A stretch of DNA of 63,059 nt. Origin: Opitutales bacterium. Its GTDB lineage: Bacteria; Verrucomicrobiota; Verrucomicrobiia; Opitutales; Oceanipulchritudinaceae. Within the stretch, counting starts at the first letter, position 1, and each line of letters begins with the position of its first letter. Made by a program: the position numbers and the translations under genes. The stretch covers positions 1-63,059 of the forward strand of contig JAFIGG010000011.1 of NCBI GenBank assembly GCA_020831485.1, given 5' to 3'. Below, piece after piece: positions 13,286 through 32,397 of the stretch. The notes under the pieces were generated by a model. The model worked only from the letters and a program-made list of their open reading frames with translations, searched no databases and was not told the origin of the DNA.

Positions 13286-13370
13286 AAAAACTGCCATCAA
13301 AAGCTTCCTTGAGAGAGCTTTCAAACTAAATTCCATTTTCTGAAACGTAGCGCTCCATCTGCGAATCCCG

Positions 13371-13497
13371 AGGTAGGGTCCGGTTCGCCGAACCGGCCGT
13401 GCGCCGTGACTTGCAATGCCGATCCGAACCCGTCGAATCAAATTGGCAGGCATCGGTTGTTCCGATGGGGCGGCGCTTTCGGCGAAAGCGCCCTACC
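13371..13497. repeat. Triple-hairpin element bounded by GGTAGGG/CCCTACC
   Basis: The 328-bp spacer between aroC and nfeD holds no gene. It carries an element whose ends GGTAGGG (13372-13378) and CCCTACC (13491-13497) are inverted repeats. Inside are CCGGTTCGCCGAACCGG (13380-13396, 8-bp stem), CATCGG…CCGATG (13451-13467, 6-bp stem) and GGCGCTTTCG/CGAAAGCGCC (13472-13492, 10-bp stem around one G). No T-run follows any stem. It looks like a REP- or MITE-like intergenic element; a regulatory role for the flanking divergent genes is possible but unsupported. Confidence 0.6.
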
Positions 13498-13613
13498 TGC
13501 GAGTGCGGCGGCGGCTTTAGCCCCGGGACCGTTTGTTTCTCGCATTCACGGCTTGATTTGTTGGATAGATGAGGTGATTGTATGGAAACCCCAACGTTTT
13601 ACTGTAAAAGGCT

Positions 13614-15200
13614 ATGATTAATGTGAAAATACGTCTGCTGATCTGGGTTTGTTTCGTGATGCTAGGGTCGGCAGGTCTTTGGCTGTCGGCGCAAAGTCCG
13701 GTGGACTGGCTGCGCGATGGCGAGGAAGATGCTGATGAGCAGCCTGTACCACAAGTGGAGGAGGTAGTGGACGAAGCGGTTCAATCCGACCCGGGCGCCG
13801 GTCAGGAAGCAGATGCGGTTGCAACCGAAGTGGAGGCGCGGGATGTCAGGGTCTACGTCGTGCCGATCCAAGGTGCGATTTCTCCACCCAACGCATTTAT
13901 TCTGCGCCGCAGTATCAAGCAGGCGATGGATCAGAACATCGACGTCATTGTCCTGGATATGGACACCCCCGGGGGGCGTTTGGATGTCACTTTTGATATT
14001 ATGGAAATGCTTGCCCGTTTCGGCGGTGAGACGATCACTTATGTGAACAAGGATGCCATTTCCGCGGGTGCTTACATTTCCATGGTTACAGATGCCATTT
14101 ACTTTGCGCCCGACGGTGTTATGGGTGCGGCTGCGGTTGTCGCTGGCGGGGGTCAGGAGATTGATGAAAGCATGAAGGCGAAAATCAACAGCTACCTGCT
14201 GGCCCGCATGCGCAGCTATACAGAACGGCATCCTTATAGAGGCGAAATTATCAGGGCGATGGCGGACATGGACTATGAGCTGGAGATCGATGGCGTTGTT
14301 TTGAGCCCCAAAGGGGAGTTACTTTCGTTGACGGCAGTGGAAGCCGTTCGTAGTTTTGGGACACCACCGCGGCCACTGCTGGCGGATGGCATCGCTGGCA
14401 GCATTGAAGAGCTGTTGGAGCAGCGCTACGGTGGTGGATCTGTTGAGATCGTAAAGTTCGAGCTCACCTGGTCCGAGCACGTAGCACGATACCTCGATTC
14501 GATATCACCGCTACTCCTAGGCATCGGCTTACTAGCCCTGTTTATCGAGTTTAAAACGCCGGGATTTGGCATCCCCGGGATGGTTGGCATTGCCCTTATT
14601 CTGACAGTTTTCGCGAGCAATTATATAGCGGGCCTGGCCGGATTGGAGGCGGTGCTCTTTTTTGTGCTCGGTCTGATATTCATAGCGGTTGAGATTTTTC
14701 TCTTACCGGGAACCCTTATTTTCCTAGGGATCGGTATCCTGCTCGTGATAGGTTCGCTGATCTGGTCGCTGATGGATATCTGGCCGGCTTTGCCGGTGCC
14801 CGGCGAGAACGGCGGTGGTTTTGAAATCGATCCGGCTTCTTTCTGGTCAGCGATGTACGAAGTAACGGGGGCGCTGGCGATCGCGCTTGTTGGCTTGATC
14901 CTGGTCTGGAGATTCCTGCCCAGTAGTACACTCTTCTCGCGCATCGTTCACCAGTCCCAGAGCGCTTCTCCCGACCCGGTGCTGGCCGGTGGCGGCAGTG
15001 TGGTGGCGGGTTCGGATTCGCTGCCGGATATCGGTGCTCTGGGAGTGGTTTCAAAGCCCATGCATCCCGTCGGGCAAGTAATGGTCGATGGCAAACCCTA
15101 TCAGGCAACCGTTGCGGTCGGAGGGCTCGACAAGGGCGAGCGCATTCGGGTAGTCGGGTACCGTAATTTTGCATTGCTCGTCGAGCTGGAGGACAACTGA
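13614..15200 (+). CDS. Long NfeD-type membrane protease (ClpP-like domain plus NfeD)
   Basis: At 528 residues it has a signal peptide or first helix (VCFVMLGSAGLWLSA), an acidic linker, a ClpP/enoyl-hydratase-like serine protease domain (about 75-290), four to five membrane helices (about 300-440) and a C-terminal NfeD OB-fold (about 455-528). Protease landmarks are LDMDTPGGRLD, the nucleophile region DAISAGAYIS and a lysine in ESMKAKINSYL, matching the Ser/Lys dyad of the 1510-N family. Such proteins act with flotillin/stomatin-like proteins in membrane quality control. It overlaps the next gene by one base (TGATG) and starts a three-gene operon with a short NfeD and FloA. Catalytic residues are assigned by family analogy. 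Confidence 0.88.
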   Translation: MINVKIRLLIWVCFVMLGSAGLWLSAQSPVDWLRDGEEDADEQPVPQVEEVVDEAVQSDPGAGQEADAVATEVEARDVRVYVVPIQGAISPPNAFILRRSIKQAMDQNIDVIVLDMDTPGGRLDVTFDIMEMLARFGGETITYVNKDAISAGAYISMVTDAIYFAPDGVMGAAAVVAGGGQEIDESMKAKINSYLLARMRSYTERHPYRGEIIRAMADMDYELEIDGVVLSPKGELLSLTAVEAVRSFGTPPRPLLADGIAGSIEELLEQRYGGGSVEIVKFELTWSEHVARYLDSISPLLLGIGLLALFIEFKTPGFGIPGMVGIALILTVFASNYIAGLAGLEAVLFFVLGLIFIAVEIFLLPGTLIFLGIGILLVIGSLIWSLMDIWPALPVPGENGGGFEIDPASFWSAMYEVTGALAIALVGLILVWRFLPSSTLFSRIVHQSQSASPDPVLAGGGSVVAGSDSLPDIGALGVVSKPMHPVGQVMVDGKPYQATVAVGGLDKGERIRVVGYRNFALLVELEDN

Positions 15201-17464: not shown

Positions 17465-19987
17465 ATGGCAACATCCGCTAAACGCAAAACGGCTCCAAAG
17501 GCCAAAAAGTCGTCCTCATCCGGCGTCAAAAATTCAGATTTCAAAGTATCCGCGACCGCAGAAGAACTGAAGGCGTCGATCCTCGACCACTTGAAGATAA
17601 CCCTTGCCCGCGATCCTGACTCGGCAACGCGCCGCGACTGGTGGATTTCTGTTTGCCATGCCGTGCACGATCGTATCAAGGCGCGGTTTATTGACACCAT
17701 GGGGGCGCACAACAAGGCGCAGGCCCGCCGTGTTTACTACCTGAGTCTCGAATACCTGATGGGGCGGATGTTGAACAACAACATTCTCAATTCCGGTCTT
17801 ATGGAGCCGGTGAAGGAAGCCATTGAGTCGCTGGACCTGGACCTCGATCTACTGGAAGAGCAGGAAGAGGATATGGGGCTCGGCAATGGCGGCCTGGGTC
17901 GTCTGGCAGCATGTTTTCTGGATTCATTGGCAACCTTGGATTACCCGGCGGTCGGCTACGGAATCTATTATGAATTTGGGATTTTTCAGCAGAAATTCGT
18001 GAATGGTCGCCAGATCGAATTGCCGGATGCCTGGCGGAAGTCTGGTTGCCCCTGGGAGATTGTTCGCCCTGAGTTTGCGAAATCAGTGCGGATATATGGC
18101 CATGTGGAGATGCGTTTTGATGAGCGCGGAAACCCAAAACCTTCCTGGGTGAATACCCGCGAATTGATCGGCTTGCCGTATGACATTCCGATCTGCGGTT
18201 ACGGTGCAAAGACGGTAAACTTCCTTCGCTTGTGGGAATCGCGAGCTTCGCAGGACTTTGATTTCGATATTTTCAACCGCGGCAGTTACGTTGATGCAGT
18301 GCGGGAAAAAGCCGAGGCGGAAACCTTTTCCAAGGTGCTGTATCCGAACGATTCGTCCGAATCCGGCAAGGAACTGCGGCTGGTGCAGCAGTACTTTTTT
18401 GTTTGCTGCTCGCTGCACGACATCATCCGGCGCTGGCGCAAATATGAATCGGACTGGAGCAAATTTGCCGATACCAACACCGTTCAGCTCAACGACACCC
18501 ACCCTGCAATTTCGGTGGCCGAATTGATGCGTATTCTGGTCGACGAGGAAGATCTCGAGTGGGATCAGGCCTGGGAAATCACGCGCAAAGTCTGCAATTA
18601 CACCAACCATACCCTGTTGCCGGAAGCCCTGGAAAAGTGGAGTGTGCCTTTGTTTGAGAAGGTTTTGCCGCGTCACCTGCAGATCATTTATGAGCTGAAC
18701 CACCGTTTTCTGAACGAAGAAGTCGAGAGCTGTTGGCCGGGGGACGATGATAAAAGGGCTGAGTTATCGCTGATTGAGGAGGGCTCTCCCAAGGCGATCC
18801 GTATGGCCTATTTGAGTGTCATTGGAAGCCATGCGGTAAACGGGGTGGCTGCGATGCATACCAATCTGTTGCGCAAGAACCTGTTTGCCAATTTTGAAAA
18901 GCTTTATCCGGGCAAGATTCAGAACAAGACTAATGGAATCACTCCGCGGCGCTGGTTAGCCGGATGTAATCCGCGACTGTCGAAATTGATTACGGACACA
19001 ATTGGCGACGGCTGGCAGGCCGATCTGGACCGGCTGCGTCAGTTGGATGACCATGCAGAGAATGAGGATTTTCAAAAAGCCTTTATGGACATCAAGCGGG
19101 CCAACAAAGTGGATCTGGCCCAATTGATTGAGCGCGACTGCGGAATCCGGGTGGATCCCGACGCCTTGTTCGATGTCCAGATCAAGCGTCTGCATGAATA
19201 CAAACGTCAGCACCTAAATCTGCTGCACATTCTGCACCTGTACCGCAAGATCCTGCAGAATCCGGATGTCGAAATGGTGCCCCGTGTGTTCGTATTTGGT
19301 GCTAAGGCTGCACCTGGATACCATTTGGCGAAAACTATCATTCATGCCATCAACGCGGTGGGTGAGCGGATCAACAATGATCCGAAGGTCAAAGGCCGTC
19401 TGAAGGTGGCGTTCATGCCAAATTACCGAGTCAGCCTGGCCGAGCGCATGATTCCCGCCGCAGATCTATCCGAGCAGATTTCAACTGCCGGCAAGGAGGC
19501 CAGCGGTACCGGCAATATGAAATTCGCCCTCAACGGCGCGTTGACCATTGGCACGCTCGATGGCGCGAATGTTGAAATCCGCGAGGAAGTGGGCGACGAA
19601 AACATCTTCATCTTTGGCCTGAACGTCGACGAGGTCGATGAGCGCAAGGCAGCCGGCTACAATCCTTACGACGAGTATTTTGCCAACGAGGACCTGCGCG
19701 CACTGGTCGACTGGCTGGGCTCCAATTTCTTCACACCCAACGAACCCTATGCCTTGCAGGACCTGAAACACAGCTTACTGGAGGGCGGGGATCCGTACAT
19801 GGTGCTGGCGGATTTCGATGCCTATTGTCAGGCGCAAAGAGAAGTTGACAAGGCCTTCGTGGATAAGAAACGCTGGGCGCGCATGGCAATTTATAATACC
19901 GCCCGTGTCGGCAAGTTCTCGAGCGACCGCACGATCCGGCAATATGCCGAGGAGATCTGGAATCTGAAACCCGTTGAAGTGCAATGA
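17465..19987 (+). CDS. glgP: Glycogen/starch phosphorylase
   Basis: This 840-residue GT35 enzyme releases glucose-1-phosphate from alpha-1,4-glucans. Landmarks are [60 protein letters not shown], the PLP-binding region [20 protein letters not shown] (Lys in NMKF) and [11 protein letters not shown] lysine- and alanine-rich N-terminal extension of about 25 residues ([13 protein letters not shown]) precedes the enzyme and is probably disordered. The length is close to bacterial orthologues. It overlaps the next gene as ATGA, an unexpected coupling to a DUF3108 envelope protein. Its promoter is probably in the AT-rich 17430-17464 stretch. Confidence 0.96.
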
Positions 19988-22789: not shown

Positions 22790-23151
22790 TCAGATTTTGA
22801 ATTCCCAAGGATTTACGCTTGGAATTTCGTCCGGGAAGTCGGCAAGGTTGCGGGTTGCAATGGTCAGTTGGAAGTGGGTCGCAGTGGCAGCCAGAAGGCT
22901 GTCGATGACCGGGTAGCTTTGCTTTGCGTTGAAGCGACCCCAATGATCGGCCACTTCCTCGGAGACGGGGAGGATGAAGTCCTCGTAATCCGTCATCAGT
23001 TGTTCGAGCCAGTTTTCGAATGCAGGGACCTGGGCGGGGGACTTGCGGCGCAGGACTTCTATGCCTCCGAAGACACACCCCGTTCCCGCGCCCGCCGCTT
23101 GAGCTTGCGGACCAAGGCATCCTCGACGTTCCTGACAAGTAATTGAGCCAT
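22790..23151 (-). pseudogene. Deletion scar of a FitAB/VapBC-type toxin-antitoxin pair
   Basis: From ATG 23151 the strand encodes 30 residues beginning MAQLLVRNVEDALVRKLKRR, then stops at 23059. This is the start of a FitA-like ribbon-helix-helix antitoxin. Immediately afterwards another frame runs IEVLRRKSPAQVPAFENWLE…MTDYEDF…VIDSLLAATATHFQLTIATR and ends at 22790. This is the C-terminal two thirds of a PIN-domain toxin. The antitoxin's C-terminus and the toxin's N-terminal aspartate strand are missing, so one internal deletion fused the two out of frame. The remnant toxin should be inactive. It is convergent with mutL. Confidence 0.8.
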
Positions 23152-23412: not shown

Positions 23413-25293
23413 GTGGCGGTTCCTCAATATGGCAGTCACTCCAACGAAGAATTTTTCGCATACGACGACCTCCACCGTCTGATCGGGTCCAATATAGGTT
23501 ATCTAGGAGAAGGGGTTCCCCCGCCGGTGCACACCTATTACGACAATTTTGGCAACCTGCTGGAAAAGGAGGGTGTCGAGAACGAGTACGACAGCACTTA
23601 TTTCATGCGTCTGGACAACTCGACGGTGACCGGCATCGGGGGAATCGCCTACAGTTACAATTTCCGTGGACAGGTCACGCTCAAGAATCACGTCTCCGGC
23701 CCGGGTTGGCAGGCCATTGATTGGTTGCCATTTGGGCAGCCGGAGAGCATCAGCACAAACACCGGAGCCAGTTACACCTATACCTATGACACTCGGCAGC
23801 AGCGGATTCGTGAGGTTCGTTCCAACGGAGAGGACCGCCGGTTTGCCAGTGGCGGTCAATATGAACGGATTCATTACCCCAACTCAAGCATCCGCCACCG
23901 CCATATCATACCCTTGCCCGGCGGAGCTACCGGAATGGTGGAATTCATGGACGGGCAGCCGCAGAGCACGGGCGACGAATACTACCTGCTGAGCGACCTG
24001 CTGGGCTCTTCGACTATGGTCCTGAGTCGCCTGGGAACCAGCGGTGGGGTTGCGGATACCTATGCTTACGACGCCTGGGGGAACCCACGGGACCCGGACA
24101 CCTGGAATACCTATGGATTCCAGACCGCCTGGCCCGCGCACATTGGCAACCGCGGCTACGGCGGACATGAAATGCTGGAGGATGTCTCCATGGTGCACAT
24201 GGGAGGGCGGATTTATGACCCCGTCAGCAGTCGTTTTCTCAGTCCGGACCCTTATGTGCAGTCGCCCAATAATCTGCAAAATTACAACCGTTACAGCTAT
24301 GTGCTGAACAACCCGATGAGCTTTACGGACCCCAGCGGGTTCCTGTTTGACAAGATAGCCGGCTGGATCGGGGACGTGTTCAGCGGCATTGGCAATGCGT
24401 TGGGGTCGATGTGGAAGACCATTCGACCGTATGTGGGCACGGTGGTGACGGTAGCACTTGCCGCATTTCCGGCGACGGCACCCTTTGCCGGTATCATCGG
24501 CGGAGCCGTTGGCGCAATAGCGAACGGGGGATCCGTCGGCGATTTTCTCATGGGCATGGGGATAGGCATGTTCGCCGGTGCCATAGCTCAGGACTGGGCG
24601 ACGTCGATAGGCGGCTATTTTAGCCTTGCTTCCGACCACCTGGGGCAGGCTATGATATCCGGAGCGGTGATTGGAGCCGTGAGTGGAGCGATGAGCGCAG
24701 CGGTCTATGGACAAAATGTATGGAAAGGCGTGCGCAGCGGCGCCGCCTGGGGCAGCGCCACTGCTGCTATGGTGCATTTGGTAAGGCCAGCGCCGAAGGT
24801 TGGAGGGAGGGAGGAAAGACAGACTGAGAGAGTTTCTGAAGGCCCTTGGATTGAAGAACCTCTATTTGAGCAATCATCATTTGGCGATAGTCTGGGGCTT
24901 TTCGCGTATGAGTATGAAGTTGTTCATCAGGTGGAAAGATTATCGAACTGGTATTATGCAAGCAGAAATGATCTCCCAGCATTGACTGGTATTCCTCTTG
25001 TGGACAACGTCCTTTCACTTTTTCAAGCGACTACAGTTCAGTACGATGCTAGTTTTAGGGAAACGATCTTTGTCTACAGAAAATCATTTTCGATTGATGT
25101 ATCAATGGGAGGTGGCTTTAGTTCGCTTATGGGGCTAGGAGTCCCTCGCGTTGGGGTGAGGGAGAATTCGACACTGGTCCGTAAATACACTAGGAGAGTT
25201 GTTAAAACTCAACTTATTCCACGTTCATCTCTTCCGCTGGAAATCCCAAAGGTAATCTTGGAGTTTTCAACAGAGAGGCAGCCAGACATTTAA
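23413..25293 (+). CDS. N-terminally truncated Rhs/YD-repeat protein with variable tail
   Basis: This 626-residue C-terminal piece of an Rhs protein opens with GTG directly after an in-frame stop. It lacks a signal peptide and the long run of YD repeats expected of a full protein (usually well over 1000 residues). Visible parts are YD-type repeats (AYDDLHRLIG, YYDNFGNLLEKEG), the core motif YDPVSSRFLSPDPYVQSPNN and NRYSYVLNNPMSFTDPSGF at about 275-312, and a Gly/Ala-rich hydrophobic region (about 330-455). A unique C-terminus (about 456-626) is much more AT-rich than the core. In polymorphic toxins that tail is the effector; no toxin family is recognisable here. Four small AT-rich genes follow at once. 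It may be a pseudogene or a silent tail cassette. Confidence 0.75.
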   Translation: MAVPQYGSHSNEEFFAYDDLHRLIGSNIGYLGEGVPPPVHTYYDNFGNLLEKEGVENEYDSTYFMRLDNSTVTGIGGIAYSYNFRGQVTLKNHVSGPGWQAIDWLPFGQPESISTNTGASYTYTYDTRQQRIREVRSNGEDRRFASGGQYERIHYPNSSIRHRHIIPLPGGATGMVEFMDGQPQSTGDEYYLLSDLLGSSTMVLSRLGTSGGVADTYAYDAWGNPRDPDTWNTYGFQTAWPAHIGNRGYGGHEMLEDVSMVHMGGRIYDPVSSRFLSPDPYVQSPNNLQNYNRYSYVLNNPMSFTDPSGFLFDKIAGWIGDVFSGIGNALGSMWKTIRPYVGTVVTVALAAFPATAPFAGIIGGAVGAIANGGSVGDFLMGMGIGMFAGAIAQDWATSIGGYFSLASDHLGQAMISGAVIGAVSGAMSAAVYGQNVWKGVRSGAAWGSATAAMVHLVRPAPKVGGREERQTERVSEGPWIEEPLFEQSSFGDSLGLFAYEYEVVHQVERLSNWYYASRNDLPALTGIPLVDNVLSLFQATTVQYDASFRETIFVYRKSFSIDVSMGGGFSSLMGLGVPRVGVRENSTLVRKYTRRVVKTQLIPRSSLPLEIPKVILEFSTERQPDI

Positions 25294-25879: not shown

Positions 25880-26329
25880 ATGAAAAGTGAATTTGTCATA
25901 TCTGTTTTATTGTTCTTGTCGGGATGTGCTTTGCTCTCGGAGCAGCCTTCAGATCAGTATCCTGGCCTCGGGGGGCCCGTAGCGCTTAGCGATTACGATA
26001 AATCTGGATATGTAGAAATGAAGGACCTTGATCATACCCCGGCAGTCGTCTGGCATGGACGGGTTGGACGATCTCCTCCGCTTGTTCCCGATGATTATCC
26101 ATCATTTCGTTCCAAGGTTAAGCTGCTGGTTTTTGTTAACGTTTCGGGAGAGGTTGAAGACGTGTTGATTCTTGAAGCGGATCATAAATTAGTCGCTTTA
26201 AGAGTTGTATCCAGGATTCAGTCCGCAAAATTTGAACCTGGGAAGCTCAATGGTGTAGTGGTCCCTTTTGTTTTTTCCTTTGAAACAATTCACACGCATC
26301 CTTCGGAACCTGTGGACTGGTCTTTTTGA
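25880..26329 (+). CDS. TonB-C-like lipoprotein, tandem paralogue 1
   Basis: This 149-residue protein has a lipoprotein signal (VISVLLFLSGC, cysteine 16). The mature part has a GYVEMKDLDHTPAVV segment and ends in VKLLVFVNVSGEVEDVLILE…KFEPGKLNGVVVPF. That resembles the TonB C-terminal domain pattern (hydrophobic strand, D/S-G-x-V, …F-x-P-G…N-G). ATG 25880 is preferred over a TTG four codons upstream because it opens the signal peptide directly. The next paralogue starts 4 bp after its stop. No membrane helix or proline-rich TonB spacer is present, so it is not an energy transducer itself. The domain assignment is by eye. Confidence 0.65.
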   Translation: MKSEFVISVLLFLSGCALLSEQPSDQYPGLGGPVALSDYDKSGYVEMKDLDHTPAVVWHGRVGRSPPLVPDDYPSFRSKVKLLVFVNVSGEVEDVLILEADHKLVALRVVSRIQSAKFEPGKLNGVVVPFVFSFETIHTHPSEPVDWSF

Positions 26330-26333
26330 TCCA

Positions 26334-26792
26334 ATGGATAAATCCGTCAAGTTGGTGTTTTCAATGACACTATTGCTGTTTGGTTGTTTCCACCCGGGTG
26401 AGCGGTCTTTTGGTCCCGAAGTAGATCTTCTGGATGAGGATAAGGTGGAAGGAGTTGTTTCTGGATATGTGGCCTTTGAGAAATTGGAGAATTCACCGGC
26501 TGTTGTTCGCCAGCCATCCGGTTCCCCGCACATTTCTGCGCAGGTTTCGACGGAGCGAGCGGTGGAAAATCGTTTTCTGATTTTGTTTGATGAGAATGGG
26601 CAGGTCACTGAGATACATGTACTGAATGCGGAAGATCCGCACATTGCAGCCGAGCTGAGAGAGCGGCTCTATCAACTCGTTTTGGAACCGGGTTATCTAG
26701 AAGGTCAACCAGTCGCCTTTTATCTGATCACTCGAATCTCCTCTACCTTTGTTCGGGATGTGGCTCGTCCTGGTTCACGCCCCCAATTGTAA
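26334..26792 (+). CDS. TonB-C-like lipoprotein, tandem paralogue 2
   Basis: This 152-residue protein has a lipobox at MTLLLFGC (cysteine 18). It aligns by eye with its neighbours: GYVAFEKLENSPAVV corresponds to GYVEMKDLDHTPAVV in paralogue 1, and ENRFLILFDENGQVTEIHVL…LVLEPGYLEGQPVAFYL corresponds to the C-terminal TonB-like part. Sequence identity is low, so the duplication is old or the copies diverge quickly. The TTG 22 codons upstream is rejected because it lies inside the previous gene and breaks the signal peptide. Confidence 0.62.
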   Translation: MDKSVKLVFSMTLLLFGCFHPGERSFGPEVDLLDEDKVEGVVSGYVAFEKLENSPAVVRQPSGSPHISAQVSTERAVENRFLILFDENGQVTEIHVLNAEDPHIAAELRERLYQLVLEPGYLEGQPVAFYLITRISSTFVRDVARPGSRPQL

Positions 26793-26793
26793 A

Positions 26794-27294
26794 GTGAAAA
26801 CAGTTTTAATACTTCTGATCTGCCTGTGCGTATCTGGACTCGGATGCGGTCATGTCCGTACTTCTGGTGATCCTGATCAGGATGTTGACCTGGGGCCTCC
26901 TGTTCTTGCTGTGGATTGCGACATTGATGGGTACTTTTCAGTTGATGACTTGGATTATGACCCCAGGCCTATTTATGGGTCGGGATCTGTTCGAGCTTCA
27001 GGGCCAATAAGGGATACTTTCGAATATGGAATCAGAGATCAGGCGGGTAACTTCCATGCGCTGCCACGACCCTCTGCGGCACGCCCTTATTTTAAGTCTG
27101 TTACTGAGATTCTGGTCTATGTGGATGCTGCGGGAGTCATCCACCGAATTGAAACCATCCGTGCGGATCACGAGAAAATTGCTGATTTCATGAAGCGGGA
27201 ATATCAGGAGGCCTACGCTCCAGATGTTGGTATGTTTGATGGAGAATCGGTTCGGTATTATTACACGGAGACCCTGACATTCAGGGCTGAGTAG
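26794..27294 (+). CDS. TonB-C-like lipoprotein, tandem paralogue 3
   Basis: At 166 residues from the GTG at 26794, one base after the previous stop, it gives a clean signal MKTVLILLICLCVSGLGC (lipobox SGLGC). An ATG at 26758 inside the previous gene would add 12 residues and spoil the signal. The conserved elements are GYFSVDDLDYDPRPIYGSG and VTEILVYVDAAGVIHRIETI followed by …MFDGESVRYYYTETL. The D-x-D-x-x-G-Y motif is clearest here (DCDIDGYF). It is the last gene of the AT-rich cluster; repeats and relic DNA follow. Confidence 0.62.
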   Translation: MKTVLILLICLCVSGLGCGHVRTSGDPDQDVDLGPPVLAVDCDIDGYFSVDDLDYDPRPIYGSGSVRASGPIRDTFEYGIRDQAGNFHALPRPSAARPYFKSVTEILVYVDAAGVIHRIETIRADHEKIADFMKREYQEAYAPDVGMFDGESVRYYYTETLTFRAE

Positions 27295-27436
27295 GGACGA
27301 GGAAACAGCAGGTGTGGGGGTGCTGAGATATGGATTGTTGGACGGGAGGATGGATAATGGATAGATATGGATTTTGGGGTGAGAATGCAGCGAGCTTAGC
27401 TTCTCGCGATTTCGATTTCGATTTCGATTTTGAGTG

Positions 27437-27802
27437 TACAGGTATTGGCTTGAGGTATTCGGAATGGGTTACTGATTCGGGTCCAATGAAGTTAAAGACC
27501 TCCCTGTTCGTTTCGCGTGAAGTTTTGGAATAGTGAAGGGCGATGAACGATTCCCAACTCATTCGAGTTGTTGGTTGGTGGTTTCTTGGTTCGCCAGTTT
27601 TCCGTAGCCGCGATCGTCCCGAGCGCGGAATCCAAAACCAGCGCACGATATGGCTGGGCTTTAGGCTGGTTACGCCGGCTTGGAGTCGCGTCTTAGACCT
27701 CACGCAGAAACGCTGAAACGCGGGGGCAGCGGGTTGTTACGCGGTTTGGGTATACAGGTATTGGCTTGAGGTATTCGGAATGGGTTACTGATTCGGGTCC
27801 AA
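27437..27802 (+). repeat. Pair of 50-bp direct repeats
   Basis: TACAGGTATTGGCTTGAGGT…ACTGATTCGGGTCCAA occurs at 27437-27486 and again at 27753-27802 with no visible difference over 50 bp. The second copy runs straight into the short hairpin repeat. The 266 bp between the copies hold relic-like sequence. The identity suggests a recent duplication or the ends of a small insertion. Confidence 0.85.
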
Positions 27803-27835
27803 CGAACCACTATCGTTGGTTCGCTACGGCCTCAC
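27801..27835 (+). repeat. Short dispersed hairpin repeat, copy 3 of 3
   Basis: This copy is the same as that at 7656-7690 (stem CGAACCA/TGGTTCG). It lies 34 bp beyond the stop of the minus-strand PIN toxin gene, outside it. See the copies at 571-606 and 7656-7690. Confidence 0.75.
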
Positions 27836-27869: not shown

Positions 27870-28298
27870 CTACTGCATTGGGTTTTTCCAGCGCAGGCCG
27901 GGGAAGCGTTGGAAATCCATGTCTGTGGTGTGGACTTCTGCATCGAGTCGCAGGGCTACCGATGCTATTTGGGCATCGGTGGTCAAGTTGCCTGCGGTTC
28001 CGGCGATTTTTAGCAGATCAAGCGCTTTTTGGATATCTCCGGGATCGGTTTCCACCAATCGCACTTGGGGGCGTGCTAGCCACTCCGCGACGATGGGGCG
28101 GATTTCGTCAATGCTGAACGGTGCTTCGAAAACACGTGGATTCGTTGTGATCCGAACAAAGCCGAAAAGAACGACGGGCAAAAGGATGAAGGGTTGCGTA
28201 TCCTCCATGCAGGTTGTCAGCCAGGCTTCCGCTTTGGCATTCCACTGCGATTGTTTGTTGTAGGCATGAACCAGGCAATTTAAGTCGGGAACAATCAC
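27870..28298 (-). CDS. vapC: PIN-domain toxin (VapC type)
   Basis: This 142-residue PIN-domain ribonuclease starts MIVPDLNCLVHAYN, with the first active-site aspartate D5 and the N7 typical of the fold. The central LPVVLFGFVRITTNPRVF is the pattern of one large VapC subgroup, in which the usual second acidic residue is not obvious. The distal aspartates are in TTDAQIASVA and TTDMDFQRF. It overlaps the upstream antitoxin by four bases (ATGA) and so is co-translated. It is expected to cleave tRNA or rRNA when free of antitoxin. Confidence 0.85.
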   Translation of the reverse strand: MIVPDLNCLVHAYNKQSQWNAKAEAWLTTCMEDTQPFILLPVVLFGFVRITTNPRVFEAPFSIDEIRPIVAEWLARPQVRLVETDPGDIQKALDLLKIAGTAGNLTTDAQIASVALRLDAEVHTTDMDFQRFPGLRWKNPMQ

Positions 28299-28567
28299 TG
28301 CTTGGGAACTCTGCTGTTTTGGTCGAGAAAAGCCTCGGCTTCGAGATCATCCGCCACTTGTTGCAGGCGGGAGGGGTCGATGCCGGTTTTCAGTCCGAGT
28401 GACTTTGACTTAACTGTAAACGGAGGTTGGCGTCGTGTTGAAGCCTCGGCAGCTAATGATTGCCGCAACAGATCGTTGACAACCTTGGTGAATGGTCGCC
28501 GGGTTTTGACCGCCCGTTCCCGCACCTGTTTTTCGATGTCAGGCTCGATATTAAGGGTCGTTCTCAT
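28295..28567 (-). CDS. vapB: Ribbon-helix-helix antitoxin (VapB type)
   Basis: About 90 residues starting MRTTLNIEPDIEKQVRERAV, a typical ribbon-helix-helix DNA-binding start. Two further in-frame ATGs at 28576 and 28579 would add three or four residues. The basic stretch KTRRPFTKVVNDLLRQSL is the second helix, and the acidic C-terminal part (DLEAEAFLD) would bind the toxin. A perfect palindrome overlaps or precedes the start and is the likely autoregulatory operator. It overlaps vapC by ATGA. Confidence 0.82.
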   Translation of the reverse strand: MRTTLNIEPDIEKQVRERAVKTRRPFTKVVNDLLRQSLAAEASTRRQPPFTVKSKSLGLKTGIDPSRLQQVADDLEAEAFLDQNSRVPKQ

Positions 28568-28571
28568 TTTT

Positions 28572-28585
28572 AGCATCATGATGCT
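28572..28585 (-). promoter_or_regulatory. Palindromic operator candidate of the vapBC pair
   Basis: AGCATCATGATGCT is a perfect 14-bp palindrome just upstream of the preferred antitoxin start (28567) and overlapping its alternative starts. It is flanked by A/T-rich sequence that could hold the promoter. Ribbon-helix-helix antitoxins usually bind such sites, so this is the natural operator candidate. Confidence 0.55.
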
Positions 28586-31824: not shown

Positions 31825-32397
31825 ATGACTTCAGAACGTAGTAGTTTTATCCGATCGGCTCGCGGCGTTGTTGTTTGTGGGCTCTTGTTGGCCCTTATTA
31901 TTGGTGGTGTTTGCTGGATTCTATTTCCTGGCAAATCAGAAAAGAGTCCCGATGGCGAATCGGGTGCCTCGGTGGTTCCTTCGGTCGTGGATCGGGAGCC
32001 TTCAAGCAATGTTCAGCGGAGTTATTCGGCTGTGGATCGTCCCACGGATCCCGCGCGTTGGGGAGAGATTTGGCATGAGGGCGAAAGCATCTCCGTCGCG
32101 GCGAATGTGCGCTTCGAGTTTCCGCGTTTCTACCTGAGTCCTGGTGCCAGGGTCGAAGGCAGTGCGACTTTCCCTCAATTGGAACCAGGGGCGCGCGTTG
32201 CCTTGGATGCGGTTGATAGCGGTTATCTGGCTGCCAATTACAGCATGCTGGATGAGGACCGGCGTGCTCACTTTGAACTCGAGCTTCCGATTCACGAAGG
32301 TGCTCACCGAGTTATTCTCAGGCATGGTTCGGAGACACGCAGCTTCGAGTTTTGGGTTGGAGAAGAGCCTCCTGTTGTCGTTCGCCGGGAAGACTGA
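31825..32397 (+). CDS. Single-pass membrane protein of unknown function
   Basis: This 190-residue protein has a short basic N-terminus, one helix (VVVCGLLLALIIGGVCWILF, residues 15-34), a Ser/Pro-rich linker and a C-terminal beta-sandwich-like domain (about 85-180: ARVEGSATFPQLEPGARVAL, HRVILRHGSETRSFEFWV). No family is recognised. The periplasmic part could be a binding or accessory domain. It converges with the ThuA-like gene, with 19 bp between stops. Confidence 0.6.
   Translation: MTSERSSFIRSARGVVVCGLLLALIIGGVCWILFPGKSEKSPDGESGASVVPSVVDREPSSNVQRSYSAVDRPTDPARWGEIWHEGESISVAANVRFEFPRFYLSPGARVEGSATFPQLEPGARVALDAVDSGYLAANYSMLDEDRRAHFELELPIHEGAHRVILRHGSETRSFEFWVGEEPPVVVRRED

Follow-up and report, generated by a model that had tools for sequence, protein, structure and literature searches.

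The window analysed here, that is, the whole stretch of 63,059 nucleotides, belongs to contig C46 of an Opitutales bacterium. The genes considered lie on its forward strand and begin with a short Rhs frame of 626 amino acids in total, of which the part at 23413-24813 carries the Rhs core (TIGR03696, E 4.5e-15; GC3 0.68) and the part at 24814-25293, delimited by a breakpoint in GC3, is a variable, AT-rich C-terminal tail and a candidate toxin tail. The first follower of the tail is P0004 (25307-25837, 176 amino acids), which sits between the tail and LP1 and was missing from the earlier note; by reading, its product has an N-terminal hydrophobic anchor and an exported domain. Then come three adjoining genes described in that note, LP1 (25880-26329, 149 amino acids; recognised by sequence reading, Pfam, structural model and profiles), LP2 (26334-26792, 152 amino acids; sequence reading and profiles) and LP3 (26794-27294, 166 amino acids, GTG start; reading, model and profiles). 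All three are indeed intact plus-strand frames, together covering 25880-27294, and the short gaps claimed for them were measured as 4 bp between LP1 and LP2 and 1 bp between LP2 and LP3. The gaps along the whole series from the tail through P0004 to LP3 (13, 42, 4 and 1 bp) suggest one operon.

The N-terminus of each LP product is a hydrophobic export signal followed by a Cys. A clear lipobox had been claimed for every one of them; this stands for LP1 (LSGC) and LP2 (LFGC), which pass the strict pattern, and does not stand for LP3, whose weaker GLGC fails it and fits only a looser lipobox pattern, so that the lipidation of LP3 is less sure. From these signals the three products are probably lipid-anchored. 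Pairwise identity within the trio was 24-30% in alignments, and the alignment scores of the mature parts were far above those of shuffled sequences (z 15.6 for LP1-LP2, 15.1 for LP1-LP3 and 6.1 for LP2-LP3; 0 of 1000 shuffles reached the observed score for each pair), which clearly points to homology among the three. When 25 TonB_C proteins were placed on a tree, a branch supported at 92/99, not starred, set the trio apart from all the others; the branches of LP2 and LP3 are long, and for joins of this kind the tree program cautions that they may be spurious. Local amplification of the trio is likely on this evidence. Kinship of the trio to the Rhs tail or to P0004 was also considered, and rejected at shuffle z values of -0.5 to 1.4.

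The three proteins had been said to end in a pattern like that of the TonB C-terminal domain (TonB_C). A search against Pfam named this domain for LP1 alone (E 0.021; 15.7 bits against a cut-off of 24.6). The curated cut-off of PF03544 was reached by none of the trio, and LP2 and LP3 were without a TonB_C match, their Pfam matches being to unrelated families and all below cut-off; the best one of LP3 (DUF5717, E 0.026) was as strong as the TonB_C match of LP1. NCBIfam gave two TonB-type matches for LP1 (0.049 and 0.1), chance-level matches for LP2 and none for LP3. The comparison with PF03544 proposed in the earlier note therefore named one protein of the three, and that one below cut-off. The domain was clear for all three by hhalign against 19 TonB_C proteins, taken from the same genome and related ones: LP1 scored 97.2% at 2.9e-11, LP2 95.2% at 2.7e-8, LP3 95.8% at 6.5e-9 and the pooled trio 99.0% at 7e-18, and the controls P0004 and Rhs tail scored 0.5% and 0.3% against the same set. 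A profile of these 19 proteins, run over the open reading frames of 83 stretches, recovered LP1 at 1.4e-11, LP2 at 1.6e-7 and LP3 at 4.7e-4.

Structural models pointed the same way for LP1 and LP3, each built from a three-row alignment. The AlphaFold2 model of LP1 has a mean pLDDT of 66 and reaches 73 to 91, block by block, over residues 81-140; its top 16 Foldseek matches are TonB C-terminal domains, including the TonB homologue FusB; the best E-value was 2.1e-3, none being 0.001 or better. The model of LP3 is poor (pLDDT 51), and TonB or FusB domains fill its top 13 places, the best at E 0.046. Both models thus resemble TonB domains and not unrelated folds, that of LP3 at low confidence, and both show a long last strand within the fold. 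The matches of a PDB sequence search were weak: TonB2 was at the top (0.023), and further TonB matches had E-values close to those of antibody chains and other proteins. Judged by the profile comparisons, LP1, LP2 and LP3 are all carriers of a TonB_C domain.

The motif G-Y-x5-L-[DE]-x2-P, claimed to be common to the trio, was found exactly in all three by direct reading on the plus strand: GYVEMKDLDHTP in LP1 (26006-26041), GYVAFEKLENSP in LP2 (26463-26498) and GYFSVDDLDYDP in LP3 (26929-26964). As the signature of a new family it was rejected, the P of L-D-x-x-P being present in 18 of the 19 TonB_C proteins, true TonBs included. The true TonBs of this genome and its relatives carry D-L-[DT]-x-x-P directly ahead of the domain, and the shared motif appears to be largely the inherited L-D-x-x-P of TonB. 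A Trp ahead of the E-P-G turn is kept in 18/19 of the compared proteins; the trio has Ala, Leu and a gap at this position, and the same Trp is absent from the lipoproteins of the related genomes G010 and G003, which have Tyr, Phe and Leu there. In the P-x-Y-P stretch, the Tyr is unaligned in LP1, LP2 and LP3. The motif, the domain glycines and the proline are retained in each of them.

The TonBs of the same genome possess a membrane anchor and a proline- or acid-rich spacer; against these, direct reading bore out the claim that the trio is without both. Outside the window, the genome has 15 TonB_C stretches, 12 of them over cut-off, and ExbB, ExbD and TonB_C matches occur together on contigs C60, C62, C135 and C137; none of the genome's nine ExbD and ten MotA_ExbB matches falls on the window's contig. 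The trio might be taken for decaying fragments of a duplicated tonB, the reading frames of which were kept by chance. Its high divergence, the long branches of LP2 and LP3 and the apparently cut state of the adjoining Rhs frame would fit such relics; the intact state of all three frames, the export signal on each and the retention of motif, glycines and proline throughout argue against them, and we regard this explanation as very improbable.

A second motor-less TonB_C layout was observed, in which a secreted-looking protein contains the TonB_C stretch twice. Such proteins are encoded by two tandem genes on one contig of the same genome (C98; L046, 856-2598) and by one gene on another (C4; L078, 5435-6163). 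At a locus of the related genome G043 (contig C55; L050, 5369-8182) there are three tandem genes in which the domain seems, by eye, to be repeated; in the one tested, Pfam found one stretch.

Directly upstream of its GTG the Rhs frame is closed by an in-frame stop, and no signal peptide is visible; the frame is also short compared with the two full Rhs proteins of the genome (1298 and 1333 amino acids), which have signal-peptide-like starts. It is therefore probably an orphan Rhs tail gene that has lost its 5' part. Compared with those two proteins it is of a different type, with 28-30% identity around the core only. The best GC3 breakpoint in the frame is at 24814, where GC3 falls from 0.68 to 0.37 (log-likelihood gain 23.2). 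The genes behind it have similar values (P0004 0.44, LP1 0.40, LP2 0.46 and LP3 0.43), and GC3 is 0.62-0.69 for the gene at 19984, glgP and mutL, with 0.69 for mutL upstream and 0.69 for a ThuA-like gene downstream; the intervening PIN and hexapeptide-repeat genes have 0.59 and 0.56. These values bear out the claim that the trio is AT-rich like the Rhs tail and unlike the flanking core genes, and they define a single AT-rich block which begins inside the Rhs frame and runs to the end of LP3 (27294). The trio thus lies downstream of a variable tail, on the same strand and with matching composition, with P0004 between.

For the tail (query 24796-25290) no relative was found in 383 other genomes, and for P0004 none in 88 other genomes. 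No toxin family or activity was recognised in the tail, P0004 matched nothing in either collection, no Pfam, NCBIfam or PADLOC model of an immunity family was matched, and none of five proteins matched the PADLOC defence models at E 0.1. As its first follower, P0004 is the ordinary immunity candidate for the tail.

To place this arrangement we compared it with Rhs loci elsewhere. The Rhs core was searched in 89 genomes, this one included, and was present in at least 48 among the matches listed. The sample comprised 80 regions from 36 relatives, the window and the two other Rhs contigs of the same genome; the core was recognised by profile in 77 of the 80 relatives' regions, and the Rhs regions total 502,725 bases, many ending early at contig ends. 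Whether a product looks exported was decided by a simple script; the genes of the relatives were called by a greedy ORF caller. Among 111 distinct Rhs-core frames, own-genome frames counted in, 96 had core and tail long enough for comparison, and the tail was lower in GC3 than the core in 92 of these (medians 0.38 for tails and 0.70 for cores). A same-strand follower within 250 bp was present for 79/111 frames and absent for 32/111. In all 72 cases with a measurable core, the first follower was the more AT-rich of the two; as a control, followers of long ORFs at loci without Rhs were AT-richer in 28 of 48. Followers looked exported in 50 of 79 cases (48 of the 75 not longer than 280 amino acids). 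A first background, short ORFs at any position, gave 78/276 and was too lenient; in the matched control, 20 of 48 first followers of long ORFs looked exported, which makes the argument from exported followers weaker. The composition pattern is strong and the excess of exported followers modest, an excess that would fit toxins acting in, or passing through, the periplasm. P0004 fits the pattern of an Rhs follower, and the trio are extra followers. The AT-rich tails and followers found across the order (L158-L237) could yield many uncatalogued toxin and immunity families.

AT-rich tails are likewise present at the two other Rhs loci of the same genome, and so are small followers that are AT-rich; several of these followers look exported. 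At one of these loci, on contig C85 (L072, 6222-13290), the full-length Rhs gene begins with a signal-peptide-like stretch, and next comes an orphan frame made of core and tail. Several small AT-rich genes lie behind this frame; the products of some look exported, and two of the genes were tested and had no Pfam match. Directly upstream of the full-length Rhs gene on this contig lies a gene (13332-13919) with a counterpart in the window, at 31825-32397, 4.5 kb downstream of the trio; the two products are 43% identical (208 columns, E 2e-42). The window product has a hydrophobic N-terminus and no Pfam match at 0.1, and its gene, which has no Rhs gene behind it, is perhaps the leftover of a lost Rhs locus.

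Other features were observed around the block. A 62-bp direct repeat (27429-27490 and 27745-27806, 95% identical) lies directly after it and has only these two copies in the genome at E 0.001. Further downstream, on the minus strand, are a PIN-domain protein (E 7e-7) and a small partner without Pfam match (27870-28298 and 28295-28579). A PIN remnant, the C-terminal part of such a protein at E 0.0015 and below cut-off, is located between mutL and the Rhs frame (22790-22996, minus strand).

No other genome carrying the trio was found among 89 genomes, this one included, nor among 384 genomes, again including this one, with at most nine candidates scored per genome, a search that can miss weak copies. 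A pattern search of genome contigs for related loci matched 121 stretches, of which none was confirmed as a relative, and LP1, the only query used here, had no match at E 1e-3 among 72,556 plasmid and 50,697 phage records, which gives no support to an origin as cargo of a plasmid or phage. The survey for the trio beside Rhs tails, suggested by the earlier note, found no TonB_C lipoprotein in the 80 relatives' Rhs regions, either with a profile of the trio plus three relatives or with the 19-protein profile. The sole TonB_C match near a relative's Rhs was a secreted protein 3.4 kb downstream (L194, genome G029), which scored 0.0006 and 1e-16 by the two profiles and 1.9e-11 for Pfam TonB_C. Conversely, no Rhs core was found at any of 28 TonB_C loci (476,925 bases; three of the loci from the same genome). 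Lipobox-type TonB_C proteins were present at 9 of these 28 loci, all without an Rhs core. Among the relatives, short TonB_C lipoproteins are single in G003, G216, G310, G162, G166 and G246 and form tandem pairs in G010, G045 and G150. Six of nine relatives' proteins tested were over the Pfam cut-off and none of the trio was. A grouping of the trio with the G010 and G003 lipoproteins had a p-AU of 0.48. TonB_C lipoproteins are thus common in the order, and their placement beside Rhs is unique to the window in this sample. The earlier note had taken wide occurrence of the trio without any Rhs or toxin context as speaking against its idea; wide occurrence away from Rhs is seen for the TonB_C lipoprotein family and not for the trio itself. 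Its picture of an amplified, lipid-anchored TonB_C family at a toxin fragment was supported as regards a likely amplified, probably lipid-anchored family and the shared composition block with the tail, and was not supported as regards a recurrent pairing with Rhs.

These results allow a plain explanation: the trio would be ordinary exported TonB_C-only proteins from the pool of the order, duplicated in place, with an incidental position beside Rhs and a role unrelated to toxins, perhaps as a scaffold or in receptor modulation in the envelope. The nine related genomes with Rhs-free TonB_C lipoproteins support it, and the pairs in G010, G045 and G150 show that proteins of this sort commonly duplicate in tandem; the PIN protein, the PIN remnant and the 62-bp repeat nearby make the region seem one that collects insertions. 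It does not readily account for a composition block which begins inside the Rhs frame and takes in the trio, for gene gaps suggestive of one operon, or for the difference from the relatives' proteins at the Pfam cut-off. We consider this explanation a serious possibility, appreciably short of an even chance.

The reading we tentatively prefer, and to which we give somewhat less than an even chance, is that the tail, the membrane-anchored P0004 and the three TonB_C lipoproteins are an imported polyimmunity-like cassette with a protective role in the envelope. The trio would consist of motor-less TonB C-terminal domains in which a lipid-anchor signal has replaced the inner-membrane anchor and spacer, would have been born by local amplification, and would have reached this genome, or been put together, as part of a single cassette that also held P0004 and the AT-rich Rhs tail. 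The residue after the Cys is not Asp in any of the three, and the Lol rule of E. coli would therefore place the proteins in the outer membrane, on its periplasmic side. P0004 would serve as the immunity protein against the adjacent tail. The lipoproteins may give protection from related toxins, or from toxins since lost, that act in the periplasm or pass through it; they would bind either the toxin itself or a TonB-dependent port used by it. An immunity role for the trio is possible. For the cassette speak the TonB_C domain and the joint tree group of the three, the low GC3 and short gaps that link them to the tail and P0004, the AT-rich tails and followers usual at Rhs loci, the share of exported-looking followers and the tandem immunity paralogues described elsewhere. 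Against the cassette stand the lack of TonB_C lipoproteins in the 80 relatives' Rhs regions and of Rhs at the 28 TonB_C loci, the missing N-terminus of the Rhs frame, which may be a remnant, the lack of a recognised toxin activity in the tail and of any match to an immunity family, the modest excess of exported followers and the 32 of 111 Rhs frames without a follower within 250 bp.

Protection could also take the form of a decoy, in which lipid-anchored TonB C-terminal domains, on the periplasmic face, bind the TonB boxes of outer-membrane receptors and so close the TonB-dependent route to toxins. The long last strand in the modelled fold and the outer-membrane placement predicted by the Lol rule are consistent with this idea. 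In E. coli, transport is reportedly inhibited by a soluble fragment of TonB in the periplasm (Howard et al. 2001); our searches of the open-licence PMC literature, and the accessible text of PMC11658791, yielded no account of such an effect. The Ton and Tol routes serve colicins, and Ton-related ones apparently serve SitA toxins (PMC8546572). Strong divergence, with the Trp lost and the P-x-Y-P Tyr unaligned in all three proteins, argues against a decoy, as do the cost that a block of nutrient uptake would carry and the fact that no receptor or TonB-box partner was identified. We hold the decoy, which would act by exclusion at the receptor and not by neutralising the toxin, to be improbable. 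It is likewise improbable that a polymorphic-toxin cassette recruited an outer-membrane-tied, triplicated receptor-contacting domain of TonB for this use; if it did, the decoy would occupy TonB boxes or toxin tails and shut TonB-dependent entry to rival toxins. Under the preferred cassette reading, the locus matters as a lead: motor-less TonB_C domains with a lipid-anchor signal recur in the order, and the trio in a putative toxin-tail cassette points to a possible function in immunity or entry blocking.

The trio resembles the energy-transducing TonB (PF03544/TIGR01352) in the fold and sequence of the C-terminal domain, in L-[DE]-x-x-P ahead of it and in having an export signal. It differs in its lipobox-like signal, in being without the TonB-type anchor and spacer and the conserved Trp, in the lack of an ExbB or ExbD match on its contig, and in Pfam scores below or outside the cut-off. 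The evolution of TonB and TolA is treated in PMC12204202, the accessible text of which does not mention TonB_C-only lipoproteins. In the open-licence PMC literature we found no description of such lipoproteins as immunity proteins and no study of motor-less TonB_C domains with a lipid-anchor signal. The TonB_C-only lipoproteins of the order are like the trio in having a lipobox-like signal, in being short, in containing TonB_C alone and in often being tandem. The G150 and G045 pairs, G216 and G310 (Pfam TonB_C 1.4e-12 to 1.5e-20) are unlike it in that the Trp is kept, the cut-off is passed and their stretches have no Rhs core; the G010 pair (0.00021 and 0.035) and G003 (no match) lack the Trp, as the trio does.

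The genes tli5b1-3 encode lipoproteins. Both polyimmunity loci and immunity genes in tandem paralogous copies have been described (PMC3482391, Zhang et al. 2012), tandem paralogues also in PMC9484751, and the Rhs tail-immunity cassettes and polyimmunity loci of the former are like the present locus in having a variable tail, then small genes, with tandem followers. The collection of PMC3482391 is unlike it in that Imm65 is the only lipoprotein-looking immunity protein there, and the word TonB is absent from the accessible text. Among further systems, pldB-tli5b123 has tandem immunity genes of the effector PldB (PMC6684961), and Tli3 is an outer-membrane lipoprotein immunity protein (PMC9860674). 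These PldB and Tli systems differ from the present locus in that their effectors are phospholipases of the T6SS. The likeness is in gene layout and in the kind of protein: tli5b1-3 are, like the trio, three tandem followers of one effector, and Tli3 and the tli5b products are examples of immunity conferred by lipoproteins.
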